Program-made: the position numbers and the translations under genes
Part shown: one piece after another, positions 1 to 25,895 of the stretch
Position numbering within the stretch: the stretch's first letter is position 1
How the letters are laid out: each line of letters starts with the position of its first letter
The notes under the pieces: model-generated
What the model was told of the DNA's origin: nothing
What the model saw: the letters and a program-made list of their open reading frames with translations, nothing else
The model's database searches: none
From: a virus
IMG/VR virus record: IMGVR_UViG_3300009488_000060
Span: 1-27,479 of that record
Direction: 5' to 3' (one strand)
DNA: 27,479 nucleotides

Positions 1-1
1 C

Positions 2-121
2 ATCGGCGCTGAATGTGTAATTGTTAAAAAAACAAGAGCAGGATTAATTCAAGTGGCCCTAAAAGACAATTTAAAGAGAACCTATTCTGTGCCACAGAGA
101 AATATTACTTTAAAAGTATAA
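2..121 (+). CDS. C-terminal end of an unidentified gene (5' truncated by window edge)
   Basis: Frame 2 is open from the first base to a TAA at 119-121 and encodes 39 residues with no start, so only the end of a gene is present. The residues are a plausible soluble beta-rich protein tail (hydrophobic and charged residues alternate, ending NITLKV). It lies on the same strand as the following phage genes and is separated from the next one by about 100 bases containing hairpins. I do not recognise the family, and with so few residues it could be a chance open frame. Confidence 0.35.
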   Translation: MGAECVIVKKTRAGLIQVALKDNLKRTYSVPQRNITLKV

Positions 122-165
122 CGATGTTGATAACCAGCGGCAGGGAACGAAACACTAAAAACCAA

Positions 166-223
166 GCAGACTGTTAGCCGTCTGCGTTGATTATGGGGTT
201 ATAATTTTTTGCCCCAAAGGAGG
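166..223 (+). promoter_or_regulatory. Leader with two small hairpins, a TATAAT box and a strong ribosome site
   Basis: GCAGAC at 166-171 pairs with GTCTGC at 180-185 across an 8-base loop, and TGGGG at 194-198 pairs with CCCCA at 212-216. The second arm runs directly into the ribosome site AAAGGAGG (216-223), so the hairpin could mask it. TATAAT at 200-205 matches a -10 box, but no -35 element is visible at 16-18 bases, so promoter activity is doubtful. The ribosome site is clear; the regulatory role is inferred. Confidence 0.35.
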
Positions 224-227
224 ATTT

Positions 228-1016
228 ATGGCACTTGTTGAAAACGATTTATTCTTAGGTGAAATTGACAAAGTGAAGGTAGCTATTGAAAGGCTAAAGA
301 CCTTTGAGCCTGCCGAGGGATATTACCTTGCCTTTTCAGGGGGGAAAGATTCGGTTGTGATAAAACGCCTTGCTGAGATGGCTGGCGTTAAGTTTGAGAC
401 ACATTATCATTTGACCACTGTAGACCCGCCGGAGCTTGTTCATTTCATAAAAGAGTTTCATCCTGACGCGATCTGGCACAGACCAGAGAAGAATATTGCT
501 GAGAGAATGTATGATAAAGGCGTTGCCCCTACTAGGATGATTCGCTGGTGCTGTGATGAATATAAAGAGAGAGGCGGGGCGGGGCGAGTTGTGATAACAG
601 GCGTGCGCTGGTATGAATCGGCTCGAAGGGCGCGAACCAGAAGAATGAATGAAACGTGCTTTAGGGACAAAAAGAAGCATTATTTGAATGCTATTATAGA
701 TTGGGAAGACTCTGATGTATGGGATTTCATTCATTCTCAACAAGTGCCATATTGTAGCCTATATGATGAGGGATTCAAGAGGTTGGGGTGTGTTCTCTGC
801 CCGATGACGACACCGGCAAACAAGATGAAAGAGGCTGCGAGGTGGCCTAAAATAGAAGCCAATTGGAAAAGATGGATTTATCGTTTGTGGGAGAAGCAGA
901 AAGAAAAGCGAGGCGATGACTATAATTTTAGGACACCGGAAGAGTATTGGAACTGGTGGATAACTGGCAAGGGAGGCCAAGGGCAGAACCCCGACCAGAT
1001 GAAAATGTATGATTGA
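228..1016 (+). CDS. PP-loop (PAPS reductase/DndC-like) family protein with a [4Fe-4S]-type cysteine pattern
   Basis: This 262-residue protein belongs to the adenine-nucleotide alpha-hydrolase/PAPS reductase superfamily. The PP-loop SGGKDS is at residues 37-42 and a conserved GVRWYESARR segment at 125-134. Cysteines occur as CC at 108-109 and C-x2-C at 188-191, a spacing close to the CC-X80-CxxC signature that ligates a [4Fe-4S] cluster in APS reductases and is also used by relatives such as DndC. The C-terminal ECGLH-type catalytic motif of true sulfonucleotide reductases is absent; the protein ends in an aromatic-rich tail. Phages often carry such genes with unknown roles; sulfur transfer to a nucleic acid or nucleotide is possible but inferred. 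No dnd partner genes are in the window. The start is fixed by AAAGGAGG four bases upstream of the ATG. It lies upstream of the integrase, separated by a short leader. Confidence 0.85.
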   Translation: MALVENDLFLGEIDKVKVAIERLKTFEPAEGYYLAFSGGKDSVVIKRLAEMAGVKFETHYHLTTVDPPELVHFIKEFHPDAIWHRPEKNIAERMYDKGVAPTRMIRWCCDEYKERGGAGRVVITGVRWYESARRARTRRMNETCFRDKKKHYLNAIIDWEDSDVWDFIHSQQVPYCSLYDEGFKRLGCVLCPMTTPANKMKEAARWPKIEANWKRWIYRLWEKQKEKRGDDYNFRTPEEYWNWWITGKGGQGQNPDQMKMYD

Positions 1017-1088: not shown

Positions 1089-2069
1089 ATGAAAAAGATA
1101 AATTCACCATTTTTGCAGAGGGTGTCTGATGCTATCCGAGTGAAGCATTATGCGGAATCTACCCGCAAGAACTATGTCGGGTGGGCGCGGAAGTTTATTC
1201 TCTTTCATAAGTTTGATTCTGAAGGGGCTATGCTAGTAAGCCCTGAAGAGCTTATCAAAATGTATCTCTCACATCTTGCTCTTTTTCGCAAGGTCTCCGC
1301 CTCTACTCAAAATCAGGCTATGAATGCGCTTGTCTTTATGTATAAAAATGTTTTTATGATTGAACTAAACGGCAAGATAGATGCGGTAAGAGCAAAGCGG
1401 GCTAAGAAAAAACCACGGTATCTTTTTGTTGATGATACCCGTATGCTGCTCGATGCCCTTTCCGGCACAGGCGTCGGTCTGATTGTTGAACTTGCCTATG
1501 GTGCGGGGCTACGGCCCGGCGAGGCAGTATCGCTCAGAATGGAGGACATAGATATCGACTGGCGCCAGATTAATGTGAGGGACGCTAAGGGGAAGAAGGA
1601 TCGCGTAACTGTTCTACCGGAAAATCTTATCCCTTCTCTACATGTCCAGATGCGGAAGGTGGAGAGAACCCACCGTCTCGATGTTTCAAAAGGTTTCGGC
1701 CATGTGGAGATCTCTTGGAATAAAGACCACACTACAGACAAGCTCGGTCAGCAATTTCTCTTTCAGTCTGGTAGACTTTCACAACATCAGGGTACCGGCA
1801 AAAAGGGGCGCTTTCATATCTTCGACTCTACCATCCAAAAGGCGGTCAAAAAAGCGGCAGAGCGCGTTGGTATACTCCAGAGGGTAACGCCTCATATGCT
1901 TCGCCATTCCTTCGCCACGCATATGCTGGAAAGTGGAACGGATATCCGCACTGTGCAGGAACTGCTTGGTCATAAAGATGTGAGAACAACGATGGGATAT
2001 TGTCATCCGACAAGAACGGCAGGGGAGATCAGGAGCCCGCTGGATGATTTGAGAGCAATTAATAATTGA
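1089..2069 (+). CDS. Integron-type (IntI-like) tyrosine recombinase/integrase
   Basis: This 326-residue tyrosine recombinase would catalyse phage or element integration and excision. The N-terminal SAM-like core-binding domain covers about residues 7-95 and the catalytic domain about 110-305. The catalytic set is complete: R142 in GAGLRPGE, K170 in KGKKDR, H269 and R272 in HMLRHSF, H295 in LLGHKDV and nucleophile Y304 in TMGYCHP. This numbering runs close to IntI1. Between the second and third catalytic patches (about 185-250) there is an insertion with the pattern THRLDVSKGFGHV and a FLFQS stretch, resembling the extra segment that separates integron integrases from XerC/D; the C-terminal IRSPLDDL is also IntI-like. 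No attC cassettes were recognised. The gene starts with ATG after AAAAGGAGG and ends 46 bases before the terminase module, an unusual place for a phage integrase. Confidence 0.9.
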   Translation: MKKINSPFLQRVSDAIRVKHYAESTRKNYVGWARKFILFHKFDSEGAMLVSPEELIKMYLSHLALFRKVSASTQNQAMNALVFMYKNVFMIELNGKIDAVRAKRAKKKPRYLFVDDTRMLLDALSGTGVGLIVELAYGAGLRPGEAVSLRMEDIDIDWRQINVRDAKGKKDRVTVLPENLIPSLHVQMRKVERTHRLDVSKGFGHVEISWNKDHTTDKLGQQFLFQSGRLSQHQGTGKKGRFHIFDSTIQKAVKKAAERVGILQRVTPHMLRHSFATHMLESGTDIRTVQELLGHKDVRTTMGYCHPTRTAGEIRSPLDDLRAINN

Positions 2070-2115: not shown

Positions 2116-2688
2116 ATGACTGAGCAACTGAAATTCAAACAAGCAACCGAAGTCCATCAATATGCCATTAAGCAGGGCTATGATATGGGATCTAGCAAGA
2201 TGAATTCTACTCTTGCAACAAAACTAAAGGGCATTTCTAAAAAAGATGGTTACTGGTTCAAGGAGGATATTGATAATCTTTTGAGGTTCGGCAAATTTAA
2301 GCAGCTCTCTGGTGCTATGCCTGCCGACGTTGCCGTCCTGGACCGCAAGATCAAAGAAGCCGAACTTCGTACAAGAGAAGGAAATGCCGATAAGGTAGAA
2401 AGAGAGAACGCTAAAGCCTCCGGACAGTTAATTGAACGCTCTAAGATGAGTCGCGAACTTGTTGCTAGGATGATACAACTCCGCAAAGATGAGAAGACAG
2501 ATAATAAGATTAAATCTTCTCATATTATAGCCCTTGTAGATGGAGATATTGAGAAAGAAAAAGAGCTTAATAAATTACTAGACAATCTAACAGACAAGCG
2601 AATGAATACCTATGCAAAGCCTTTTAAATTTGCCGTTTCTATGACTGAGCTTGAAAAAGAGATTGTCTTGCTTGAGGCAGAGGATTAA
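2116..2688 (+). CDS. Putative terminase small subunit
   Basis: This 190-residue protein lies immediately upstream of the terminase large subunit, 10 bases away, on the same strand, which is where a small subunit is expected. The N-terminal 75 residues are basic and helical with an LLRFGKF segment, and could hold the DNA-binding fold. Residues about 75-115 are rich in charged residues (a predicted coiled coil with KIKEAELRTREGNADKVERE), followed by a helical C-terminal half that would contact the large subunit. I chose the ATG at 2116, with GGAG at 2103-2106. A longer TTG start at 2080 would read through the palindromic AT block and a low-complexity segment, so it is less likely. The role would be cos or pac recognition in DNA packaging. 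Assignment rests on position and general architecture, not on a strong motif. Confidence 0.6.
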   Translation: MTEQLKFKQATEVHQYAIKQGYDMGSSKMNSTLATKLKGISKKDGYWFKEDIDNLLRFGKFKQLSGAMPADVAVLDRKIKEAELRTREGNADKVERENAKASGQLIERSKMSRELVARMIQLRKDEKTDNKIKSSHIIALVDGDIEKEKELNKLLDNLTDKRMNTYAKPFKFAVSMTELEKEIVLLEAED

Positions 2689-2698
2689 CAGGGGCCAA

Positions 2699-4615
2699 AT
2701 GCAAATTAAATCAGCGCAGACTGAAACAACACAAGCCGAGATGTATTACCCTTTCACCTTCTCTTCACAGGAGTGCCGTGCGGCGGAAACGAAAATAAAG
2801 ATCCCTATCTCGGAGCATGCTGAGAAATATCAATATGTTGCCAGGGGGAATCATACCGGCGCATGGCGGAATGATATCACCCCGGATCTTGCCTTCATCA
2901 TGGACACTATCGGAGAGGAGCATGTCCGGGAAGTCATATTCATGGGAACTCCGCAGGGTGGAAAATCGAATGTGCTCCTGAATGCCCTCGGCTCTTTTAT
3001 TGATCAGGACCCTGCAGAAGTGCTTGTCGTCTTCCCCACGCGGGACGATGTGCGGGAGTTTATGGACGACCGTATCATTCCTATGCTGGAAAATAGTCCG
3101 CAGTTATCTCAATATATATCACCAAACCCTGATGACACAGCCAAGTATCACGTTAAGCTGACAAACTCAGCCATTATTTACACGGGCTGGGCAAACTCAG
3201 CCAGCCGTCTTGCATCTAAGGCTATTAAATATATTTGTCTTGACGAGGTTGATAAATATGACGCTACTGTCGGCAAAGAGACGGATGCCATTTCGCTTGC
3301 CAGAAAGCGGAAGAGGACTTTCGGTGATACTTACAAACTTATAATCACCTCCTCGCCCACGCGGGAAGATGGTCACGTCAATAAAGCTTTTAATGCTGCC
3401 CAAGTTCAATATCGCCGCCATGTTGTCTGTCCCGATTGCGGCACTGACCAGTTAATGAATATCACCGGCATTAAATATCCTGAAGATAAAACAAAAGAAG
3501 AGATCGCAGCAGGTGGTTTGGCATGGTACGAATGCTCTCATTCTGATTGTCAATCTAAATGGACAGAGGCGAAACGGAACCTAGCTGTCCGCGCAGGAAG
3601 ATGGGTGCGCTACAAAGGACAGGATCTAGAAAAACCGACGACCATTGCTTTCCATAAGCCCGGTTGGCTCTCTTTTGATGTTACCTTTGCCGAGATCGCC
3701 GTCTGTGAGATTGAATCAAAGACGGACCACGCAAGGCTGATCGACCTTTACAATGATTATATGGCGGAGCCATTCATTGAATCTGAAGAGGGTGAAGGTA
3801 TAACAGAAAAGGTCCTTTATGACCGTCGGGAGGACTATGGGCCGGAGAATGCCGAATGGGTGGTGCCTATGGCGGCTAGTGTTATCACCTGCGCGGTGGA
3901 TGTTCAAAAGAACCGTTTGGAGACGGAAGTAGTAGCATGGGGCGAAGGTCTTGAGAGTTGGGGCCTCGAATATAAGCAGCATATAGGAGACCCGGCAAAG
4001 CCGGAAGTCTGGGCGAATCTCGACAGATATCTAAAAAAGAAATTCAGGCACGAAAGTGGAATAGATTTAAAGATCGCCATTACCGCAATTGACTCAGGTT
4101 ATCTGGCTGGGGAGGTTTACAAATTCGTAAAGCCCCGGCAAGTGAGACGGGTCTATGCTATTAAAGGGGAAGATGCTATCGGCCATGCCCTTTATGCCTT
4201 TTCATCCAAAAAATATAGCGGGGCGAAAAATAAAAACCTCAAAGATATTCATAAAATAAATCTTTGCAGGATAGGCACAGAGACGGCAAAAGACCAGCTT
4301 TTACATTGGATGCAAATTGAGGAGCATGGCCCATGTTATATGCACTGGCATATGGGATATCCTCATGAATATTTTAAACAATTAACAGCGGAACATGCCA
4401 TCCAGGATAAAGGCAAGCGCCGCTGGAAACCTAAAAAGAAAGGTGCACCAAATGAGGCGGTGGACTTAAGGGTTTATAATTATGCAATGATCGAAGTTTT
4501 AAATCCTGATTTTGAAGAGTTAAATATAGAGATTGCTGCCATAAATCAAAAAGAAGATAATCCCGTTAAACAAATAAAGCGTCCTGTTATGGTTCAGGGT
4601 TTAAGGAAAAAATAA
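2699..4615 (+). CDS. Terminase large subunit, lambda gpA family
   Basis: This 638-residue protein is the packaging motor and cutting nuclease of the phage. The ATPase domain shows a Walker A-like GTPQGGKS at residues 83-90, Walker B YICLDEVD at about 178-185 and a motif III-like ITSSPT at 216-221. A zinc-binding insertion follows (CPDCG at 244-248, then C279 and C284), typical of the gpA group. The nuclease half begins near residue 395 with AVDVQ (D401), and a second acidic strand ITAIDSGY follows. The length matches gpA (641 residues in lambda). I chose ATG at 2699, preceded by AGGGG. An upstream in-frame ATG at 2651 would overlap the small subunit and add basic residues not typical of the family. 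Lambda-type cohesive-end packaging is plausible, but no cos site was identified. Confidence 0.93.
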   Translation: MQIKSAQTETTQAEMYYPFTFSSQECRAAETKIKIPISEHAEKYQYVARGNHTGAWRNDITPDLAFIMDTIGEEHVREVIFMGTPQGGKSNVLLNALGSFIDQDPAEVLVVFPTRDDVREFMDDRIIPMLENSPQLSQYISPNPDDTAKYHVKLTNSAIIYTGWANSASRLASKAIKYICLDEVDKYDATVGKETDAISLARKRKRTFGDTYKLIITSSPTREDGHVNKAFNAAQVQYRRHVVCPDCGTDQLMNITGIKYPEDKTKEEIAAGGLAWYECSHSDCQSKWTEAKRNLAVRAGRWVRYKGQDLEKPTTIAFHKPGWLSFDVTFAEIAVCEIESKTDHARLIDLYNDYMAEPFIESEEGEGITEKVLYDRREDYGPENAEWVVPMAASVITCAVDVQKNRLETEVVAWGEGLESWGLEYKQHIGDPAKPEVWANLDRYLKKKFRHESGIDLKIAITAIDSGYLAGEVYKFVKPRQVRRVYAIKGEDAIGHALYAFSSKKYSGAKNKNLKDIHKINLCRIGTETAKDQLLHWMQIEEHGPCYMHWHMGYPHEYFKQLTAEHAIQDKGKRRWKPKKKGAPNEAVDLRVYNYAMIEVLNPDFEELNIEIAAINQKEDNPVKQIKRPVMVQGLRKK

Positions 4616-4625
4616 AGGAGATAAT

Positions 4626-4805
4626 ATGTCTGAAGATAAAAAGCTTAGGGTTGCCCATGTCGCAAAAAGATTAGATGTATCTGATAAGACTATTTATAGA
4701 TGGCTCGATGAAGGAAAGGTTTTTAATCTGGAGAAAGTGGTTTACATCAATAAGAGCCCTCGTATCCCGGAATCTGAAGTAAACAGGGTCTTAAATGCAG
4801 AATAA
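4626..4805 (+). CDS. Small helix-turn-helix DNA-binding protein (excisionase/MerR-like, HTH_17 type)
   Basis: This 59-residue gene has AAAGGAG at 4614-4620 ahead of its ATG. The sequence LRVAHVAKRLDVSDKTIYRW followed by a wing-like segment ending RIPESEVNRVL is the classic layout of excisionase-type winged HTH domains: helix, recognition helix with KTIYRWL, wing, and a final ESEV helix. It sits between the large terminase and the gpW-like connector, where lambda has no regulator. Nu1 of lambda also has a winged HTH at its N-terminus, so a packaging role is an alternative. A local regulatory role is possible because a strong inverted repeat lies 57 bases downstream of its stop. DNA binding is well supported; the target is not known. 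Confidence 0.8.
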   Translation: MSEDKKLRVAHVAKRLDVSDKTIYRWLDEGKVFNLEKVVYINKSPRIPESEVNRVLNAE

Positions 4806-4861
4806 TAATTAAAACCTTTTTTCTTATTTTTCTTAATCTTCTTAGACAATTTCTTTTTCGT

Positions 4862-4908
4862 GCCATAGAATAGCCGTATTATAAATATTTTTATGGGTAT
4901 TCTATGGC
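4862..4908 (+). promoter_or_regulatory. Long inverted repeat covering the gpW-like start codon
   Basis: GCCATAGAATA (4862-4872) is perfectly complementary to TATTCTATGGC (4898-4908). Pairing continues inwards past one mismatch, CC at 4874-4875 with GG at 4895-4896. The ATG of the next gene (4904-4906) is inside the 3' arm and the only weak ribosome site (GGG, 4895-4897) is in the stem. As RNA this would block initiation; as DNA it could be an operator for the neighbouring HTH protein. The repeat is seen; the function is inferred. Confidence 0.6.
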
Positions 4909-5140
4909 CGGAATAACATTAGCACAAGCAGAAACAAACCTCACAAAATGGCTTGCCGCCAGTGAAGCAGTAGCGGCAGGACAATCTTTTTCTTATTCTT
5001 CAGGGATTACATCCCGACAACTCACCAGAGCAGATGCCTCAGAAATCCAATCCATGATTGAATTCTGGGATAGTCAGTGCAAGCGCCTCAGTCGCGGCAG
5101 CGGGACAGTAATGCGCCAGGGGGTACCTAGTGGAAACTAA
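4904..5140 (+). CDS. Head-tail connector, gpW-like (DUF6148-type) protein
   Basis: This 78-residue protein starts MAGITLAQAETNLTKWLAAS and has the pattern SRQLTRADASEIQSMIEFWD, typical of the small gpW-like neck proteins encoded between terminase and portal. It would sit on the portal ring and help attach the tail or stabilise packaged DNA. Length agrees with the family (about 70-80 residues). The ATG is inside the 3' arm of a long inverted repeat and lacks a normal ribosome site, so initiation may be controlled. The stop codon overlaps the portal GTG start by 11 bases, suggesting translational coupling of the two genes. Confidence 0.8.
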   Translation: MAGITLAQAETNLTKWLAASEAVAAGQSFSYSSGITSRQLTRADASEIQSMIEFWDSQCKRLSRGSGTVMRQGVPSGN

Positions 5141-6872
5141 GCTTACCCTTCAAGGTAAAGAAATTACTGTTCCCTGGACTATTTCAGATCGCGTTGTAAC
5201 ATGGGCAAGTCCATCTAAAGGAATGGCCCGTTTCAAGGCCCGTGCAACTTTGGCTATGGCAAACGGTGGCTATAAAGGGGCCTCTAAATCTCGAAGACAA
5301 ACGAGTCAATGGCCTACTAATGGCAATGATGCCGATGCTGTTGTTCAGAGAGATCTTCCTACACTTAGAGATCGAAGCCATGATGCAGTAAGAAATCAAC
5401 CTCTTGCTGCGGGTGCAATCAATACAGTCTGCACTAATGTTATAGGAACGGGCCTCCGTATGAAAGCTCAGATCAATAGAAATGTTTTAAATATGTCCCA
5501 GGATGAGGCGGACGCATGGGAATCACATACTGAAAGCGAATTCCTTCTCTGGTCTGAATCTACGGAATGTGATGCTGCCAGGACTCTTGATTTTTATGCA
5601 CAACAGGAATTGGCATACAGATCATCGAAAGAAGGCGGCGATGTTTTAACCCTGACCCCAATGATAACAAGAGCCGGGTCGCCTTATAATCTTAAGCTTA
5701 AAATGATTGAAGGCGAAAGGCTCTCCAATAAAAATAATGCTAAAGATACGGCATCTCTTGTCGGCGGCGTACATAAAGGGACAAATGGAGACCCTACTGC
5801 CTACGACATAATGAGACAGCATCCCGGCAATATATATTCTTTTGGTAAGAAAGAATGGGATACGATTAAAGCATTCGGGTCACTGACAGGCAGGCGAAAT
5901 GTCATCCATCTTTATAAAATGCTCCGGCCGGGGCAAACAAGAGGCGTCCCTTATCTTGCTCCTGTCACTGAGATGATCAAACAGTTGTCGGATTATACCG
6001 ATAATGAGGTGGAGGCAGCAGTCCTCAGCTCGGCCTATACTGTTTTTCATAAATCTAAATATAATGATGGCGCCAGTTCACTGGATGCCCTTGACCCGGA
6101 GAAGGCAGCGGGCACAAGTAGCGTCCCTACTGATCAGCTTAAAATAGGTGGCGGCATGATCATCGGCATAGGGTCCGAAGATGAAATTGACTTCTTTGAT
6201 CCTAAAAGACCTAACAGCGCCTTTGATCCTTTTATCCAGGCCATGCTCAGGCAGATAGGCGTTGCTCTTGAAATTCCTTTTGAAATCCTTATCAAGCATT
6301 TTACAGCGTCATATAGTGCGGCTCGCGGAGCTTTGTTGGAGGCTTGGAAATATTTCAGGAAGGAAAGGGCGTGGTTTGTTTCTCATTATTGCAAGCCGGT
6401 CTATGAAGTCTGGATGGATGAGGCCATTGCAAAGGGCCGTGTCTCTGCTCCCGGATATTTCGATAATATGTCTATCAGGAAGGCATATCTCGGGACAGTA
6501 TGGACTGGTCCACCTCCAGGGCAGATAGATCCACTTAAAGAAGGGATGTCTTCAAAGCTTCTTGTTGATGAGGATTTTTCCACGAGGACAGAAGAGACAA
6601 TGAAGCTCAATGGTGGGGATTACGAGAAAAACGTGCCTCAAAGATCCAAAGAGGAGAAGATGCGGAGGGATGCAGGGTTGACTATCGTTCCTGAATTAAA
6701 CAAGGAGATTGGCGACCTTGATGATAATAATGGGTCTGATGAAGAGGATGAAACAAAGGTTGCGAATTTAACGCTAATGGATATGGAAGGGAATGTTTAT
6801 TCACATATTGCCGGTAAGGGTCTTAAATTAATTAGCGAGACGAATGATATTAAAGAGGGGTCGACTGTATGA
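5130..6872 (+). CDS. Portal protein, lambda gpB family
   Basis: This 580-residue protein forms the dodecameric vertex through which DNA is packaged. Family features include the N-terminal RDHDAVRNQP-like stretch (here RDRSHDAVRNQPLAAGAI), VIGTGLRMKAQ, the central GQTRGVPYLAPVTEMIKQL segment and SYSAARGALLEAWKYF in the C-terminal third, all typical of lambda-type portals. The length is close to gpB (533) plus a charged C-terminal tail with an acidic run near residues 530-545. The start is GTG at 5130 with AGGGGG upstream, overlapping the preceding gene. The stop overlaps the protease ATG (ATGA at 6869-6872), so portal and protease are translationally coupled. Confidence 0.93.
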   Translation: METKLTLQGKEITVPWTISDRVVTWASPSKGMARFKARATLAMANGGYKGASKSRRQTSQWPTNGNDADAVVQRDLPTLRDRSHDAVRNQPLAAGAINTVCTNVIGTGLRMKAQINRNVLNMSQDEADAWESHTESEFLLWSESTECDAARTLDFYAQQELAYRSSKEGGDVLTLTPMITRAGSPYNLKLKMIEGERLSNKNNAKDTASLVGGVHKGTNGDPTAYDIMRQHPGNIYSFGKKEWDTIKAFGSLTGRRNVIHLYKMLRPGQTRGVPYLAPVTEMIKQLSDYTDNEVEAAVLSSAYTVFHKSKYNDGASSLDALDPEKAAGTSSVPTDQLKIGGGMIIGIGSEDEIDFFDPKRPNSAFDPFIQAMLRQIGVALEIPFEILIKHFTASYSAARGALLEAWKYFRKERAWFVSHYCKPVYEVWMDEAIAKGRVSAPGYFDNMSIRKAYLGTVWTGPPPGQIDPLKEGMSSKLLVDEDFSTRTEETMKLNGGDYEKNVPQRSKEEKMRRDAGLTIVPELNKEIGDLDDNNGSDEEDETKVANLTLMDMEGNVYSHIAGKGLKLISETNDIKEGSTV

Positions 6873-8167
6873 AAAAGTCAAAGTCAAGAAGCTGGTTTTC
6901 AATTGAAGCAAAGGCAGGGGACAAAGAAGCAGATGTCTTTATATATGACGATATTGGAGGATGGGGAATCACTGCCCAGAATTTTGTGACCGCTTTAAAT
7001 GAAATCACAGCAGATCAGATTAACGTAAGGATTAACTGTCGTGGAGGAGATGTTTTTGAAGGTGTGGCTATTTTTAATGCATTGAAAAGGCATGACGCAA
7101 AGGTGGTTACTCATACTGAGGCTCTAGCCGCATCTATTGCTAGCATTATTGCCCTGGCAGGTGACGAGGTTGAAATTTCCGAAAATGCTTTTTACATGAT
7201 CCATAATCCTTATTCATGGGCAGTTGGTGATGCCGCCGCTATGAGAAAGGCTGCAGGAATGCTCGATAAGGTGACTGATTCTCTCATTAATATCTATACC
7301 GCTAAGACGGGCAAATCAGATTCTGAGATTCGTGATCTTATGGACGACGAAACATGGTTCACTGCTGATGAGGCAAAAGCTGCCGGGTTTGTAGATGCCA
7401 TAACGGACGAGGAAATAATCGAGGCTGCCTTTGATCTTAGTGTCTTTAATAACGTACCGAAGCAAGTTTTTAATACCTTAAATGCGACAAAGCCATCAAC
7501 TCGCAAACTGGAGCATGCCCTGCGGGAGGTAGGGGGCCTCAGTAAAGCCGACGCTAAGGCAGTAGTCGCCAAAGGATATAACGCCCTGGACCATCGGGAT
7601 GATGGAAAAGGGGAGGGTCATCGGGATGATGATGGGAAACCACAAAATAAAAAAGGAACGGAGGAAAGTATGAATAAGGAAGAACTGAAATCTAAACACC
7701 TTGATACTTTTAATGCCATCGTAACGGAAGCTCAGGCAGGACTTCTGACTGAAGATACGGTAGCTGCGAAAGTAAAGGCGGGTATTACCGCTGAAAGGGA
7801 GCGGATAATTGCTCTTGATAAATTGAGCGAAGATATGCCGGGTCACGAAAATATGATTGTTGGTTTTAAAGCTGACGGGACTATCACGGCTGAAAATGCT
7901 GCGCTTCAGATTATTGCTGCTCACGGTGAGAAGCTGAAAGGCATAAAGGCACAGCAGGAGAGTGATGCGGCTGGACTTGATACGGTGCCTGGAGCGGATG
8001 GTGGTTTGGGCGGTGACGGTGCAAAAGGCTTCATGGCTCTTGTCGCTGATCATCAGACAGAGCATAAATGCTCAAAAGGCACAGCTATTAAGGCGATAAC
8101 CGCTTCACATCCAAAAGAGCACAAAGCTTATATCAAAGAGCAGAATAAGGAGGCCGACGATGTATAA
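6869..8167 (+). CDS. Head maturation protease (ClpP-like) fused to scaffold, lambda C/Nu3 arrangement
   Basis: This 432-residue protein has an N-terminal ClpP-type serine protease domain (about 15-200) and a C-terminal scaffold region. Likely catalytic residues are S89 in LAASIAS, H112 in MIHNP and an Asp in the LMDDETWFTADEA segment near 159-160; GGDVFEGVAIFNAL forms the oxyanion-side strand. Residues 200-265 are a linker that ends in a charged repeat (HRDDGKGEG then HRDDDGK). An in-frame ATG with a strong ribosome site at residue 268 starts a nested scaffold product. The protease is expected to cut scaffold, and perhaps portal, during procapsid maturation. The gene overlaps the portal stop by 4 bases and the next gene start by 8. 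Confidence 0.92.
   Translation: MKKSKSRSWFSIEAKAGDKEADVFIYDDIGGWGITAQNFVTALNEITADQINVRINCRGGDVFEGVAIFNALKRHDAKVVTHTEALAASIASIIALAGDEVEISENAFYMIHNPYSWAVGDAAAMRKAAGMLDKVTDSLINIYTAKTGKSDSEIRDLMDDETWFTADEAKAAGFVDAITDEEIIEAAFDLSVFNNVPKQVFNTLNATKPSTRKLEHALREVGGLSKADAKAVVAKGYNALDHRDDGKGEGHRDDDGKPQNKKGTEESMNKEELKSKHLDTFNAIVTEAQAGLLTEDTVAAKVKAGITAERERIIALDKLSEDMPGHENMIVGFKADGTITAENAALQIIAAHGEKLKGIKAQQESDAAGLDTVPGADGGLGGDGAKGFMALVADHQTEHKCSKGTAIKAITASHPKEHKAYIKEQNKEADDV
7592..7631 (+). repeat. 27-base tandem repeat in the protease-scaffold linker
   Basis: CATCGGGATGATG occurs at 7592-7604 and again at 7619-7631, a period of 27 bases (nine codons). It encodes a repeated HRDD unit in the flexible linker. 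The in-frame period suggests a small duplication tolerated in a disordered segment. Confidence 0.7.
7670..8167 (+). CDS. Nested scaffold protein from an internal in-frame start (Nu3-like)
   Basis: An ATG at 7670 is in frame with the protease gene and preceded by GGAGG (7660-7664) five bases away, stronger than many real starts here. It would give a 165-residue protein equal to the C-terminal part of the fusion: MNKEELKSKH, a helical region with ITAERERIIALDKLSE, a glycine-rich stretch near residues 105-120 and a basic C-terminal end. In lambda, Nu3 scaffold is made in just this way from within gene C. Scaffold proteins are helical, charged and poorly conserved, which fits. The start is seen; use of it is inferred from the lambda precedent. 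Confidence 0.7.
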   Translation: MNKEELKSKHLDTFNAIVTEAQAGLLTEDTVAAKVKAGITAERERIIALDKLSEDMPGHENMIVGFKADGTITAENAALQIIAAHGEKLKGIKAQQESDAAGLDTVPGADGGLGGDGAKGFMALVADHQTEHKCSKGTAIKAITASHPKEHKAYIKEQNKEADDV

Positions 8168-9110
8168 TCCCGGGACAAGAACATTTACTGGGGGGGAAGC
8201 CCTCGAAAATAAAAGGCGGGTAAAGATAAAGAACGGTACCACTACTACACCGCCTGAAGTAGAATATGCTGATGCAGGCGAACAGCACATCGGAGTGACT
8301 GAATATGCTATTGCTTCAGGCGATCTCGTGGCCATAAAGTTAAGAAATGCCGACGGAACGCATGAAATCACTGCGGCAGGGGCTTTTGCTGTTGATGCTA
8401 CTCTTTATGGCGCTGCCGATGGTAAGGTAGATGACGCTGCCAGTGGTTCTGCAATAGGTAAAGCGGTGGAAGCTGCTACGGCTGATGGCGACATAGTGGA
8501 GACTGTTGAATTCGCGGTATTATCCACAACTGCTGCGAATGTATCAATAGCGGACGCCGGTAATCATACCGCACAAACCACTACTGAGGCGGCATTGCAG
8601 GAGCTTTATCAGCACCTTTTAAGCGTGCAGAACTTTATTCCTGTGTCTCTTGAGTCACTTATTGAAACTGACGGCACGAATCTCGTTGCCCGTCTCGGAA
8701 TCGCAACGACACCTGTTCTTGATATGGCGGGCGGAGATGCAGATTCGAGTTTGGAGGTGAACTGGGTAGCAAGCAATAATGATGCAGTGCTCTTTCAGGT
8801 GTCACTACCGCCATCTTTAGATGTCTCAGCTGATCTGGTGATTCACTTCAGGGCTAAGTCCGGTGGAGCAACTGATACTCCTACCATCTCCTCGGATGCC
8901 TTTTTCAATGAAGGAGATACGAAGGTGGAAGATGTGAGTTCGGCTCTTGGTGCTGCATTTGCAGAGAATACTATCACTATCGCAAATGGAGATATCCCAG
9001 CAGGGGCGCAGACACTTACGGTGGAGTTAACACCAGGTGCGCACACAACTGACACGGTTGTTCTTTCAGCTCTGTGGATCGAGCATAAAAATTCAATTTT
9101 AACCAGCTAA
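8160..9110 (+). CDS. Capsid cement/decoration protein (DUF2190-like) with an extra C-terminal domain
   Basis: This 316-residue protein lies between scaffold and capsid genes. Residues 1-115 (GTRTFTGGEALENKRRVKI, GVTEYAIASGDLVAIKL, AVDATLYGAADGKV, GSAIGKAVEAATADGDIVE) match the pattern of short capsid cement proteins, which are normally about 110 residues. A linker with TTTEAALQELYQHL at about 140-155 is followed by a second domain (about 160-310), a predicted beta-sandwich ending in ALWIEHK. The second domain could project from the capsid surface as an adhesion or carbohydrate-binding module; that is inference. The ribosome site AAGGAGG lies before the ATG, and the start overlaps the protease stop. 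Confidence 0.7.
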   Translation: MYNPGTRTFTGGEALENKRRVKIKNGTTTTPPEVEYADAGEQHIGVTEYAIASGDLVAIKLRNADGTHEITAAGAFAVDATLYGAADGKVDDAASGSAIGKAVEAATADGDIVETVEFAVLSTTAANVSIADAGNHTAQTTTEAALQELYQHLLSVQNFIPVSLESLIETDGTNLVARLGIATTPVLDMAGGDADSSLEVNWVASNNDAVLFQVSLPPSLDVSADLVIHFRAKSGGATDTPTISSDAFFNEGDTKVEDVSSALGAAFAENTITIANGDIPAGAQTLTVELTPGAHTTDTVVLSALWIEHKNSILTS

Positions 9111-9137
9111 TAAGCTGAGAAAAACAGGAGGAAAAAA

Positions 9138-10088
9138 ATGAGACCTAGCACAGCAGTATCGAGGCCCGAACTGGGCGCCATCGCTTTTGAGTATATGCTC
9201 GAAAAGGCAATGACAATGTTTATCGGGATGAGGTTAATGCCGATAAAAAGGGTATCCAGGCAATCAGCTGAATATCCGGTGATCCCACTTGCAGCACTTC
9301 TTGAGGCGCCTGATACCAAAAGGGCGGATAGGGGGAATTACAACAGGTCGGATTGGACCTTTGATTTCCAGAACTATGCAACGCAAGACCATGGCTGGGA
9401 AGAAAAGATCGATGACCGCGAAGAGGCCTTATATCAAAATTATTTTGATATGGAAGAGGCTGCCACTCTCAGGGCAATGGGTATTATATTGAGAGGGCAT
9501 GAAAACCGAGTGAAAGACCTTGTTTATGATACTGGAACTATCGCAAATGGAGCTGTAGGAGTTGCGTGGACTACGCCTGCAACTGCGACACCAAAAGCAG
9601 ATGTTGATGGTGCCAGGGACAGTATGCGGAATAATTTCGGGGTACTTCCGAATAAAATGACTATTTCGTATAGTCGTTTTAATGCTCTTATCAGAACGGC
9701 TGAATTAAAGGATGCATTGAAGTATACAAATCCAATCGAGATGGGAGGCTTTGAGGTTCAAAAAGCCATCGTGGCTCAATATTTTGGCCTCGATGAGATT
9801 CTTGTGGGCGATGCGCAGGAGAACACGGCCAAAAAAGGACAAACAGCAAGTCTTGGAGAAATATGGACTCCAGGCAATGTAGGTCTCTATGCCGTATCTG
9901 ACGGGTCTGATGATATGAAAGAGCCCGTAATCGGTAGAACGATGCTCTGGGAAGAAGGAGCGCCCGACATCATTACTACGGAAACCTACAGGGATGAATC
10001 AGTTCGTGCCGACATTGTCAGGATCAGAAATGATGTTGATGAAGTTTATCAGTATGAAGGCGCTGGTTATATTCTGACTGGTATTTAA
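9138..10088 (+). CDS. Major capsid protein (HK97 fold)
   Basis: This 316-residue protein is in the canonical position after protease, scaffold and cement genes. Its sequence resembles the lambda-E/HK97-fold capsid group: an N-terminal segment MRPSTAVSRPELGAIAFEYM, a DWTFDFQNYATQDHGWEEKIDDRE region at about 65-95, a spine helix, and a C-terminal end with SVRADIVRIRNDVDEVYQYEGAGYIL. It has no large N-terminal delta domain, in keeping with a separate scaffold. The ribosome site is AGGAGG at 9127-9132. A strong hairpin follows directly after the stop, probably adjusting downstream transcript levels. Confidence 0.85.
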   Translation: MRPSTAVSRPELGAIAFEYMLEKAMTMFIGMRLMPIKRVSRQSAEYPVIPLAALLEAPDTKRADRGNYNRSDWTFDFQNYATQDHGWEEKIDDREEALYQNYFDMEEAATLRAMGIILRGHENRVKDLVYDTGTIANGAVGVAWTTPATATPKADVDGARDSMRNNFGVLPNKMTISYSRFNALIRTAELKDALKYTNPIEMGGFEVQKAIVAQYFGLDEILVGDAQENTAKKGQTASLGEIWTPGNVGLYAVSDGSDDMKEPVIGRTMLWEEGAPDIITTETYRDESVRADIVRIRNDVDEVYQYEGAGYILTGI

Positions 10089-10091
10089 TCT

Positions 10092-10121
10092 TTAAGGTGG
10101 ACGGAAAACCGTCCACCTTAA
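10092..10121 (+). terminator. Strong post-capsid hairpin (attenuator or processing site)
   Basis: A 13-base-pair perfect inverted repeat, TTAAGGTGGACGG with CCGTCCACCTTAA, encloses an AAAA loop. No T run follows, so it is not a classic intrinsic terminator. Its place just after the capsid stop suggests mRNA 3'-end protection, processing, or partial termination that lowers downstream expression. Confidence 0.6.
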
Positions 10122-18687: not shown

Positions 18688-19515
18688 ATGTCCTTTGTAG
18701 CTTTAACACCAGCAGAAACGGATGCAGATAGCCCGCTCAACGAACCTCTTTTTACAAAGATCAGGAATAACTTTGATGCCCTTGAGTCCGCTGGTGTTAC
18801 TGGTGGCGATGCTCATGATCATGATGGTGGCGATGGAGCGCAGATACCACAGGGAGGAATAGCTGCAAATGCAATAGGGCAAGGGCAGTTAAAAACAGCG
18901 TCGGGTGCAATTAGCACTTCGTCTACTTCTCAAGTTAATCTTATTTTGCCTGGTGGCCAATATGGATTCTATCCTCAAACAAAAGGAAATTTTGGTCTTG
19001 CTGGTGTAATTTTTGCCGTGGGGAATATAGGCGCATCCTATGTGACAAATATTACATTAGAAGCCGCCACTGGTACTGTTTATGCACAACAAAGATACAG
19101 CCAAGCTTCGCCGCCGTATAAAGTCGGGAATAAAAAATGGGGGCATTTTCTTTACATACTTGTCAATGCTCAAGGCGATATTGTCGCAAGCTATGAAGCT
19201 GAAGACCCACCTTATGCCTATAACGGATCGCCGCATAATAAAAAAGATTCAATCGAAAGAATTCAGGCCGTCCCGCATCCTTTTGCTGATTATCACGACA
19301 AAGACCCTGCCATTGATGGTCTTGAAATTGTGCTGGTTGATTTGACAGCACACAACACTAAGAAATGGAAGGAAGACAGCGCAAAGCAGGGCAAAGGCAT
19401 TCTTGAAAACATGGGGCATATCAATAAAAAGGGCAGCATAATCACGCCGCAGGAACTAGGCATCGTAGATATTCAAGGCTTTACTGATAGAGTAAAAATA
19501 AGGAAGGCAATATAA
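18688..19515 (+). CDS. Putative tail fibre / receptor-binding protein
   Basis: This 275-residue protein starts with MSFVALTPAETDADSPLNEP and continues LFTKIRNNFDALESAGV, an attachment-type N-terminus common in phage fibre proteins. A short histidine/aspartate-glycine segment (HDHDGGDGAQIPQGGI) followed by ANAIGQGQLKTASGAIS is typical of fibre shafts and trimerisation elements. The remaining part (residues about 85-275) is a globular beta-rich domain. The ribosome site AAGGAGG is strong. It probably binds host surface structures; which ones is not visible. It is the first of three successive fibre-type genes. Confidence 0.65.
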   Translation: MSFVALTPAETDADSPLNEPLFTKIRNNFDALESAGVTGGDAHDHDGGDGAQIPQGGIAANAIGQGQLKTASGAISTSSTSQVNLILPGGQYGFYPQTKGNFGLAGVIFAVGNIGASYVTNITLEAATGTVYAQQRYSQASPPYKVGNKKWGHFLYILVNAQGDIVASYEAEDPPYAYNGSPHNKKDSIERIQAVPHPFADYHDKDPAIDGLEIVLVDLTAHNTKKWKEDSAKQGKGILENMGHINKKGSIITPQELGIVDIQGFTDRVKIRKAI

Positions 19516-19566
19516 ACCTTGATTTCCTTGGGGATAAATAATTTTTGAAGGATTGAAGGTGGATGT

Positions 19567-20832
19567 ATGATAACACACAAAGGCTGGGATATAGACGAAC
19601 ACGAAACAGGCCGCTTTAAAAATGGCAAGCCTGTTATCGGTGCAACCTTCCAAAATGGCCTGAATGATATAGAGCCGGACGGGTCTTTTATTCCTTGTGA
19701 TATGGATCTGGAAGCTATCAGTGATGGCGTCACAACACATCAAGTTAAGCGTGGGCGGTTTGGTCAGTTAAGATTTACAGATGCAGATTCTGCCAATAAA
19801 CATCTTTGCAAGATCAAATATAAAGATGGCAAGGGGCTTAGTTTTAAATATCTTGGCGGCGATAGTGGTCTGCCAGATACAGCCAATGGAAAGCCATGTT
19901 TTGTCGCTGATAACGGAGTTAAGATTGAGCATACGCCAATATATAAGGGTGTTAAAATTGAGTTGGTAGTTGATCCTCAAACAGCCCCTCTTGAATACCC
20001 GTTTTCTATAAAAAGCTATGGCCAGAATTATAGCTATGAAATAGTAAACGGAGCGATCATAGCCACAGGCGAAGACGGAAATAAAATCACTTTGCACGCA
20101 CCGTTTGCGATTGATGCAGCCGGTGAGATAGGTCAAGTTAGCTATGAAATGACAGGCATTGTCAACAACATGCAGACCTTTAAAAAGGTTGTTAATGAAG
20201 CGTGGATGCTGTCAAGGGTTGGTGAGGTTAGGATTGACCCTACTGTTATTATTGAGGATGGCGTTGATGGGCAAACAGTTGAAGAGACTCATATGAGAGC
20301 TGCTATCCCTGATCTTAACTCTGGAGGTCTTATATATGTCTATGTGCGCGAGAATATATATCGTGGCTTATTCAAGAACTCATTCCCAGACCTTGGCCCA
20401 ATTACTGTCTTAAATTCTCATTGGAAACTGTATAATTCTGGTCTATATTCAGTCAGTATCACTACTTATAAGGTCTTACGGGACTGGTTAGAAATGGAGG
20501 CCACATGGAACTCATATCAAACAGGACAGTTGTGGACGGGTGCTGGTGCTACTGGTGAAGGTGATGCAAGCTCTCCCCTAGAGACTCAGCCAATATTACA
20601 AGGTTGGGATGAGTTGAATGTTGATGCAGCGGTCACACAAGACCTCTACGACAGCCCAGCTACTAATTTCGGAATATTGTTATCAGGTTCAGGACTAGAG
20701 GCTAGTTTTAACAGTTCGGAGAACGGGGCTAATAACCCACAATTTTACATGGAATATACAGAAGCTGCAGCAGGACTTCACAGAAGAGGATTAAACAGAG
20801 GATTAAACAGAGGGCTAGGGAGGGGGTTTTGA
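19567..20832 (+). CDS. Tail protein with a DNRLRE-like C-terminal domain
   Basis: This 421-residue protein has an N-terminal region (1-230) with repeated short strand motifs (VKRGRFGQLRFTDADSANKH) of unknown family. From about 250 to 405 it follows the pattern of DNRLRE domains, extracellular beta-sandwich modules: strands and the signature LEMEATWNSYQTGQLWTGAG, then DVDAAVTQDLYD-like sequence (here NVDAAVTQDLYDSP), and NFGILLSGSGLEASFNSSEN before the last strand. The C-terminus is a basic glycine/arginine tail with repeated RGLN units. It would project from the tail to contact the host. Such domains are also found in bacterial surface proteins, so the module may have been acquired from a host gene. 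Confidence 0.6.
   Translation: MITHKGWDIDEHETGRFKNGKPVIGATFQNGLNDIEPDGSFIPCDMDLEAISDGVTTHQVKRGRFGQLRFTDADSANKHLCKIKYKDGKGLSFKYLGGDSGLPDTANGKPCFVADNGVKIEHTPIYKGVKIELVVDPQTAPLEYPFSIKSYGQNYSYEIVNGAIIATGEDGNKITLHAPFAIDAAGEIGQVSYEMTGIVNNMQTFKKVVNEAWMLSRVGEVRIDPTVIIEDGVDGQTVEETHMRAAIPDLNSGGLIYVYVRENIYRGLFKNSFPDLGPITVLNSHWKLYNSGLYSVSITTYKVLRDWLEMEATWNSYQTGQLWTGAGATGEGDASSPLETQPILQGWDELNVDAAVTQDLYDSPATNFGILLSGSGLEASFNSSENGANNPQFYMEYTEAAAGLHRRGLNRGLNRGLGRGF
20785..20820 (+). repeat. 12-base tandem repeat encoding RGLN units
   Basis: AGAGGATTAAAC at 20785-20796 is repeated exactly at 20797-20808 and degenerates to AGAGGGCTAGGG at 20809-20820. The in-frame units give RGLN, RGLN, RGLG at the extreme C-terminus. 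Likely slippage-prone variation in a flexible tail. Confidence 0.75.
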
Positions 20833-23889: not shown

Positions 23890-24612
23890 TTAATATGGAA
23901 TTGATGAGATAACATTAAAAATATAAGCTTTCGATGCTAACATGATTCCTTCGCTGTCTTTCACGGTCCATCCGATATAATGGTCTGACCTGACATCTAT
24001 CGCTGTATTACTAAATCCGACAGTATTTTGGAAGACTTCACCGATATCAAGGGAGCCTATATTGCCGGAGGCTTTCCATAAACCATCCCCTGGTATTTGA
24101 TACTCTACTTCCCATGTTGGGCTATCGCAATCCATCCCGCCAGGGAATGTATCAACACAAAAACCAAAAGAGGAGGATGTTCCCTCACAAGACGACATAT
24201 CAGGTGTTGGCTGAGGGTCATTAATATCGCCACCTATTATCTCTATGGCATAATTACAGCCACTTCCATCACCAGACGGAAAGCATTGTTTGCATATCCA
24301 TTTCTCAGGAGTTAAAAAAATTGCATCTTCAAGTTCTATAGAATATATCAGATTTGAAAGATCTACAGAACCGCCATTTTCTACACGAGTCGAGATGGTG
24401 ATCATATCTCCCTGAAAGACATCGGCAAGACGTTCTTCCGTTCCATCAAATACCTTATTTAAAGATTGTCCTGTTGTTTTAAGCGAAGCAGATTTATTAT
24501 AGATATTACCCGTTATTAAAACTTCGATATTATTATCATTAGTATCATTTCCATTATTTCCACCGCAGGCAAAGAGAAGAAGAATAAAGGGGATAAGTAT
24601 TGTTTTTTTCAT
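23890..24612 (-). CDS. Outer-membrane lipoprotein, moron-type gene
   Basis: This is the only clear gene on the reverse strand. The 240-residue product has a lipoprotein signal (MKKTILIPFILLLFAC) with the lipidated cysteine at residue 16 and glycine at +2, which favours the outer membrane. A short asparagine/glycine-rich linker follows, then a beta-rich domain with six further cysteines (about 107, 110, 119, 142, 152, 162) that may form disulfides, and a last strand region with YIGWTVKDSEGIMLASKAYI. GGAGG lies 7 bases upstream of the ATG. The gene lies behind the late terminator, has its own likely promoter, and faces the opposite way, which is the classic layout of a moron. Surface lipoproteins of phages often block superinfection or change the host surface; that role is inferred. 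Confidence 0.75.
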   Translation of the reverse strand: MKKTILIPFILLLFACGGNNGNDTNDNNIEVLITGNIYNKSASLKTTGQSLNKVFDGTEERLADVFQGDMITISTRVENGGSVDLSNLIYSIELEDAIFLTPEKWICKQCFPSGDGSGCNYAIEIIGGDINDPQPTPDMSSCEGTSSSFGFCVDTFPGGMDCDSPTWEVEYQIPGDGLWKASGNIGSLDIGEVFQNTVGFSNTAIDVRSDHYIGWTVKDSEGIMLASKAYIFNVISSIPY

Positions 24613-25309: not shown

Positions 25310-25531
25310 AGAGCAAAAAAGAGTAAAGGATATACGAGAAGAGGTGGCGCTAGATCAAAGACTAGAATTATCAAACCTATATTTACTTCTCGTATTTGCA
25401 ATGTGTGCGAGCGGAAGTTTCAAGCCGAGGATGATATGCGAAGCTGCCCTGTTTGTGCAACTACTAAAAAAACTGCCGATAACCGAGGCGGGTTTGTAGA
25501 CACAGATTTTGGTTTTTCATATTTCAGTTAA
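25310..25531 (+). pseudogene. In-frame zinc-ribbon remainder after the TAA
   Basis: Directly after the TAA at 25307-25309 the same frame stays open for 73 codons to a TAA at 25529-25531. It encodes a very basic stretch (RAKKSKGYTRRGGARSKTRI) and a zinc ribbon, C-x2-C (CNVC) and later C-x2-C (CPVC). No ATG, GTG or TTG in this frame precedes the first cysteine, so it cannot easily be translated as a separate gene. Together with the helical repeat it would form a 138-residue DNA-binding protein. A nonsense mutation, stop-codon read-through or a sequence error would all explain it. Confidence 0.55.
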
Positions 25532-25544
25532 TTCAGGAGGCGAG

Positions 25545-25895
25545 ATGAGAACTATATTGATAGTGGAAGATGATGAAACAGTGAGGCGTACACTGAATAC
25601 TATATTTATGCGTAAAGGATATAAAGCTATCGAATGGCCTGGCAGCACAGGTGTCGATAAGATTATAAAGCATCTCCATCCGGATATAGTGCTGACTGAT
25701 CACAACCTCAATCCCGGGGAAGAAGAAGGTTTTTCCCTTGCCCTGAGACTGAGATTAGAAGGAGTCAGGGTTATGCTTATGTCGGCTGATCCTGATATCG
25801 GCGAGCTGGCAGAAGTCAATGGACTACCTTTTATTCAGAAACCTTTTGATATACAGCCCCTGCTTAATATGGTTGAGGAGGTATTTCATGACTGA
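25545..25895 (+). CDS. Stand-alone response-regulator receiver domain (CheY-like)
   Basis: This 116-residue protein consists of a receiver domain only. The acidic pair D9/D10 follows ILIVEDD, the phosphoacceptor is D52 in VLTDHNL, S80 lies in MLMSAD and K99 in FIQKPF, so all key residues are present. It lacks an output domain, so it would act by binding a partner, as CheY and Spo0F do. The start is ATG at 25545 with AGGAGG at 25535-25540; an upstream in-frame GTG/TTG-type start would overlap the zinc-ribbon frame and is unlikely. The stop overlaps the next ATG. No histidine kinase is in the window, so it probably acts in a host phosphorelay. Confidence 0.9.
   Translation: MRTILIVEDDETVRRTLNTIFMRKGYKAIEWPGSTGVDKIIKHLHPDIVLTDHNLNPGEEEGFSLALRLRLEGVRVMLMSADPDIGELAEVNGLPFIQKPFDIQPLLNMVEEVFHD

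Follow-up and report, generated by a model that had tools for sequence, protein, structure and literature searches.

Integrons are known as bacterial gene-capture systems. In the class 1 and Vibrio-type integrons (IntI1, VchIntIA/IntI4), the array lies on the 5' side of intI, and the attC sites, which possess R and L boxes and both bulges, are polarized away from intI. In bacterial IntI, the I2 helix is the element held responsible for docking the extrahelical attC bases (PMC7790495). Integrons and CALINs have also been described in phages, and the attC sites of lytic phages are functional with IntI1 (Qi 2023, PMC9892861). The complete phage integrons in that report were captured host integrons or, in P1, class 1 integrons, and the lytic-phage arrays possessed no integrase. 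Another tailed phage, Virus Rctr41k (KX853513), carries an IntI-like gene together with five or more attC sites.

Here, we analyzed a 27,479-base IMG/VR virus record (the window) together with other contigs, all of which are metagenomic. The system found in the window shares with the class 1 and Vibrio-type integrons the integrase lineage and fold, the two boxes and two bulges of attC, the side on which the array lies and the attC polarity. It differs from them in that it is phage-borne, its integrase is without the I2 helix, and its ORFs are inverted, so that attC is 5' of the ORF and often contains the start codon. With the phages of Qi 2023 (PMC9892861) it has in common attC sites, methyltransferase cassettes and integrases in phage genomes; unlike the window system, TJE1, the sole lytic example checked, shows the canonical ORF orientation. 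Virus Rctr41k differs in that its array is downstream of the integrase, its ORFs are in the attC sense and the I2 motif is present.

Results

Phage contigs and features of the window

The window encodes a GpA-type terminase, a lambda-family portal, a ClpP-like protease, a major head protein and a tape measure. Thus, it represents a tailed phage whose head module is of the lambda type. The original prediction had placed the recombinase near the terminase of a lambda-like phage, and the lambda-type portal, GpA-type terminase and ClpP-type protease were indeed found downstream of the recombinase gene. A second contig of the window phage (L002) is 99.98% identical over 12 kb and reaches 1.4 kb further left. 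Two other viral contigs, L003 and L004, bear the closest relatives of the integrase (78 and 84% identical). Baseplate genes are carried by L004, and L003 has the same region at 83-86% nucleotide identity; these two are myovirus contigs. The features at the left end of the window are as follows.

1-121, plus strand: 3' part of a cassette ORF, from comparison with L002, where the whole 86-aa ORF is at 1257-1517
117-203, minus strand: attC, the only window match of the phage covariance model R2 (E=1e-8); its canonical top strand is the minus strand and points away from the integrase
228-1016, plus strand: cassette ORF of the PAPS-reductase family (phrog_424, PF01507), by family match; opposite to the attC polarity
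1029-1062, no strand assigned: attI-like block with repeated GTTA motifs, conserved in three phages; similarity begins at the R box TAACAATA
1089-2069, plus strand: tyrosine recombinase of the integron-integrase lineage without the I2 helix, by profile, AlphaFold model, structure match, alignment and dN/dS
2116-2688, plus strand: probable small terminase gene, from its position only; a family search gave no match
2651-4615, plus strand: GpA-type large terminase, start uncertain; a packaging gene just past the integron module

Some other genes were noted in these contigs. A radical SAM gene lies directly 3' of the integrase in L004 (7128-7877, overlapping the integrase stop) and in L003 (2010-2759). 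The window ORF at 25509-25895 resembles a response-regulator receiver domain (LIVEDDETVRRTL...), as judged without a family search, and an ORF with a lipoprotein-like signal (LLFACGG) lies on the minus strand at 23890-24612 among plus-strand genes and is possibly a moron.

The recombinase belongs to the integron-integrase lineage

The recombinase is a 326-aa ORF preceded by a strong ribosome site, AAAGGAGG. R142, K167, H269, R272, H295 and Y304 were invariant in alignments of 9 and of 40 sequences, in agreement with the earlier statement that all catalytic residues are present, and the IRSPLDDL end, which had been called IntI-like, matches the S-P-L-D end of IntI. With the NCBIfam integron-integrase profile TIGR02249, the recombinase scored 307.8 bits against a cut-off of 265, and its relatives were likewise above the cut-off. 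The best solved structure by sequence was V. cholerae IntI4 (E 9e-52). The AlphaFold model (pLDDT 89.6) was compared with known structures; IntI4 (2a3v) was matched with a Z score of 29.5 (2.5 Å over 294 residues), and the next fold was an archaeal Xer (Z 19.6).

In trees with IntI, Xer and phage integrases, as had been suggested as a check, the recombinase and the two viral relatives formed a tight group, which branched with IntI and apart from Xer and the remaining recombinases. The support for this placement was 93, and 99 when long branches were left out. Thus, profile, structure and tree all uphold the proposed IntI relationship. A basal place of the phage subfamily relative to the other IntI was compatible with the data in the AU test, and from these sequences the subfamily may be placed either within IntI or as sister to all other IntI.

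The dN/dS ratios among the three subfamily integrases were 0.04-0.08; for two of the three pairs, the synonymous sites are almost saturated. These low values show that the integrase is under strong purifying selection. The Pfam search detected two domains only, the catalytic one and a SAM-like core-binding domain that starts at residue 8, and the arm-binding domain typical of phage integrases was absent. As for hosts, no close relative appeared among the best 80 matches of the GTDB scan, and a search of 296 genomes from a single phylum, run without a positive control, detected none at E<=1e-80. Beyond the subfamily, no protein exceeded 47% identity among the contig matches listed. The subfamily has so far been found on phage contigs only, the genome search being partial.

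No I2 helix is predicted in the insertion between boxes II and III

The original prediction had likened the insertion between the second and third catalytic patches to the IntI-specific segment. Its position and flanks (KGFGHVEI...FLFQS) are indeed those of IntI. However, the core is four residues shorter than in IntI and the motif ALxxKYPxAxxxWxW, present in nearly all other IntI compared, is missing. No helix of at least four residues was observed at 202-225 in the AlphaFold model, whereas the control, a Vibrio IntI modelled with that alignment as well, possessed the I2 helix at 204-209 (H204-209). The likeness to the IntI-specific segment was thus confirmed only in part. The deletion and the loss of the I2 motif occurred together only in the three subfamily members among the sequences compared; most other sequences that failed the exact motif regex retain variants of the motif, as read by eye. 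On the evidence of the model, the recombinase most likely either lost I2 or never had it. Since the integrase is without I2, its activity on the attC sites described below is not assured.

attC sites and the array

For a bacterial covariance model (R1), 21 attC sites were taken from bacterial genomes in GTDB. As a check, R1 detected two sites in phage TJE1, which agrees in number with the sites tested experimentally by Qi 2023 (PMC9892861). In L002, L003 and L004, short ORFs with hairpin elements between them are arranged to the left of the integrase. R1 detected 16 sites in these contigs (E 3e-10 to 0.04), all on the minus strand and all upstream of int, and no match at E<1 elsewhere in their 70 kb. 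A phage model (R2), trained on the 16 sites, detected 22 attC sites in L002-L004, all of one polarity, and one in the window. The polarity relative to int is the same as in canonical integrons, such as those of Vibrio and Shewanella.

The window attC is the same site as L002 1513-1599, which is outside the R2 training set. It was missed by R1, and the unconstrained single-strand DNA fold of 117-203 was no better than those of shuffled sequences (z -1.0); plain folding was therefore dropped as proof of this site. Thus, the case for the window attC rests on R2 and on the relatives. Both attC bulges are present; the bulge detector scored 11 sites, and in every one of them the second bulge was A. 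The extrahelical bases are kept in the attC sites despite an integrase without I2. Altogether, the window retains one attC, one complete cassette and one attI-like block.

The AT-rich block at 2056-2090 had also been put forward as a recombination site. This block shows no conservation in the other two phages and no match to either attC model, and was rejected.

The attI-like block and the integrase module

The 60 bases upstream of the integrase gene are conserved across the three phages. To the left of the attI-like block every phage is different, and on the right side the window phage ceases to resemble the other two at the integrase stop codon. Since the similarity is limited to the block and the integrase, the pair seems to move as one module from one phage type to another. 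From its position and conservation, we infer that the block at 1029-1062 is a putative attI.

Traces of probable cassette movement

Window positions 6-123 have a 99% identical duplicate at L002 1-118, and the identity breaks at TATAAC|G. A diverged duplicate of a whole cassette is present in L004 (494-856 and 3633-3998). Furthermore, L004 5136-5471 is 100% identical over 336 nt to positions 713-1048, in reverse, of another viral contig, G036, and the flanks are unrelated. The ends of this shared unit, TAAC and TATAACGA, are at R boxes on both sides. L004 and G036 are unrelated phages. Judging from these comparisons, cassettes appear to move as units bounded by R boxes, and the enzyme encoded beside them may be what recombines them.

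G036 (L190, L191; IMGVR_UViG_3300037245_001014) was found by a pattern scan. It is 36.7 kb long with a 127-base terminal repeat, and carries a phage terminase, a portal, a head protein and a helicase. It has 13 attC matches, the first and last of which are in or beside the terminal repeat, and no integron integrase was found in its 36.7 kb. Thus, attC sites can persist without this enzyme, and another enzyme can serve such sites. G036 is also similar to the window at 19072-19571.

Cassette ORFs are inverted relative to attC

The 336-nt moved unit consists of an attC and the ORF after it; attC thus sits 5' of its ORF. Cassette ORFs were picked by length and ribosome site. In L002-L004, the best-scoring ORF was on the plus strand, opposite to attC, in 21 of the 22 cassettes, and the great majority possessed a ribosome site. 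The ORF started inside attC in approximately half of the cassettes, and the next R box often provided its stop, TAA. Codon usage agreed with the ORF choice where it was decisive, most single cassettes being undecided by it. The cassette ORFs of G036 are again opposite to attC. Among decided cassettes, the ratio of opposite to same sense was 45:4 in viral arrays left of the integrase, a set that includes contigs of unproven phage nature and in which cassettes within one contig are not independent, and 2:15 in bacterial arrays. The cassettes of L002-L004 and G036 thus depart from the canonical arrangement, in which attC follows an ORF of its own sense, whereas the reverse-layout phages (Rctr41k and its relatives) keep it. 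The open-access literature searched yielded no paper describing inverted cassettes in phages.

Integron integrases on other viral contigs

A GpA-type terminase was detected in 10 of the 36 records tested, and a large terminase of another kind in 4. These 14 are a minimum, as the search was limited to some terminase families, and only they were counted as phages because other viral IntI contigs may include misassigned bacterial integrons. The contigs with IntI and a large terminase are L022, L060, L063, L069, L076, L077, L085, L090, L091, L093, L017, L048, L078 and L087. Most of them carry R1-model attC sites; in L076 the integrase ends approximately 84 bases before the terminase match. The viral IntI fall in a few clades, one of which contains 37 viral sequences and 1 genome sequence and lies next to the class 1-type IntI. 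In Virus Rctr41k (L005), the integron occupies 4680-10100; five or more attC sites, oriented like the integrase, come after it, the ORFs are canonical, and several members of the viral clade L016-L062 look like this reverse layout.

Discussion

The locus is probably an integron borne by a tailed phage, in which the recombinase would use two kinds of site, namely the attI-like block immediately 5' of its gene and the attC sites in the array that extends away from it. Cassettes would thereby be captured, lost and shared among phages. They carry accessory ORFs of approximately 45-340 aa, including DNA methyltransferases and the PAPS-reductase-like gene, and would be read from a phage promoter presumed to lie to the left. 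Since the ORFs are inverted, attC is upstream of the ORF and in many cases supplies its ribosome site, start codon and a leader peptide.

It is unlikely, in our judgment, that the cassettes, although real and mobile, are moved by another integron integrase from the host or a co-infecting phage, the window enzyme having lost attC recognition and now performing, for example, double-strand attI-type recombination. G036, with its attC matches and no IntI, and the absence of the helix held to dock extrahelical bases (PMC7790495) would fit such a division of roles. However, in three phages that belong to at least two types the enzyme has kept its place next to an attC array, it is accompanied by the attI-like block, and purifying selection on it is strong.

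As for the origin of the enzyme, the phage lineage might be sister to all other IntI and represent a state before I2, intermediate between double-strand recombinases and single-strand attC recombinases, while still exchanging cassettes. We consider this reading quite improbable.

The original prediction had regarded the gene as a phage (prophage) integrase. This was not supported, because the gene is at the canonical integrase end of an attC array with the attI-like block between. Some phages integrate by means of borrowed simple tyrosine recombinases (PMC8138268), and att sites beside int are usual in temperate phages; an ordinary prophage integrase of IntI descent, accompanied by mere hairpins moved by homologous recombination, is nevertheless very improbable, since the repeats score as attC with the bacterial model, have the two bulges in place and one polarity, and the cassette ends fall on R boxes. 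In addition, no lysogeny gene was recognized in an unsystematic look at the window.

A captured piece of a host chromosomal integron, as in the Vibrio anguillarum phages and most published complete phage integrons (PMC9892861), or a chimeric assembly, is scarcely credible given two contigs that agree at 99.98% over 12 kb, a subfamily on phage contigs only (in a partial genome search) and inverted ORFs unlike those of the bacterial arrays tested.

With the phage-borne integron as the preferred reading, phages carry an integron lineage of their own and share identical cassettes. The DNA methyltransferase cassettes may help against host defence. Inverted cassettes with starts inside attC would constitute a natural system which places new ORFs behind a fixed start. 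If the sister-lineage placement were true, phages would preserve the missing intermediate from before I2 evolved. Moreover, as an integrase without I2 is found beside attC sites that keep their extrahelical bases, the need for I2 becomes directly testable in a natural enzyme.
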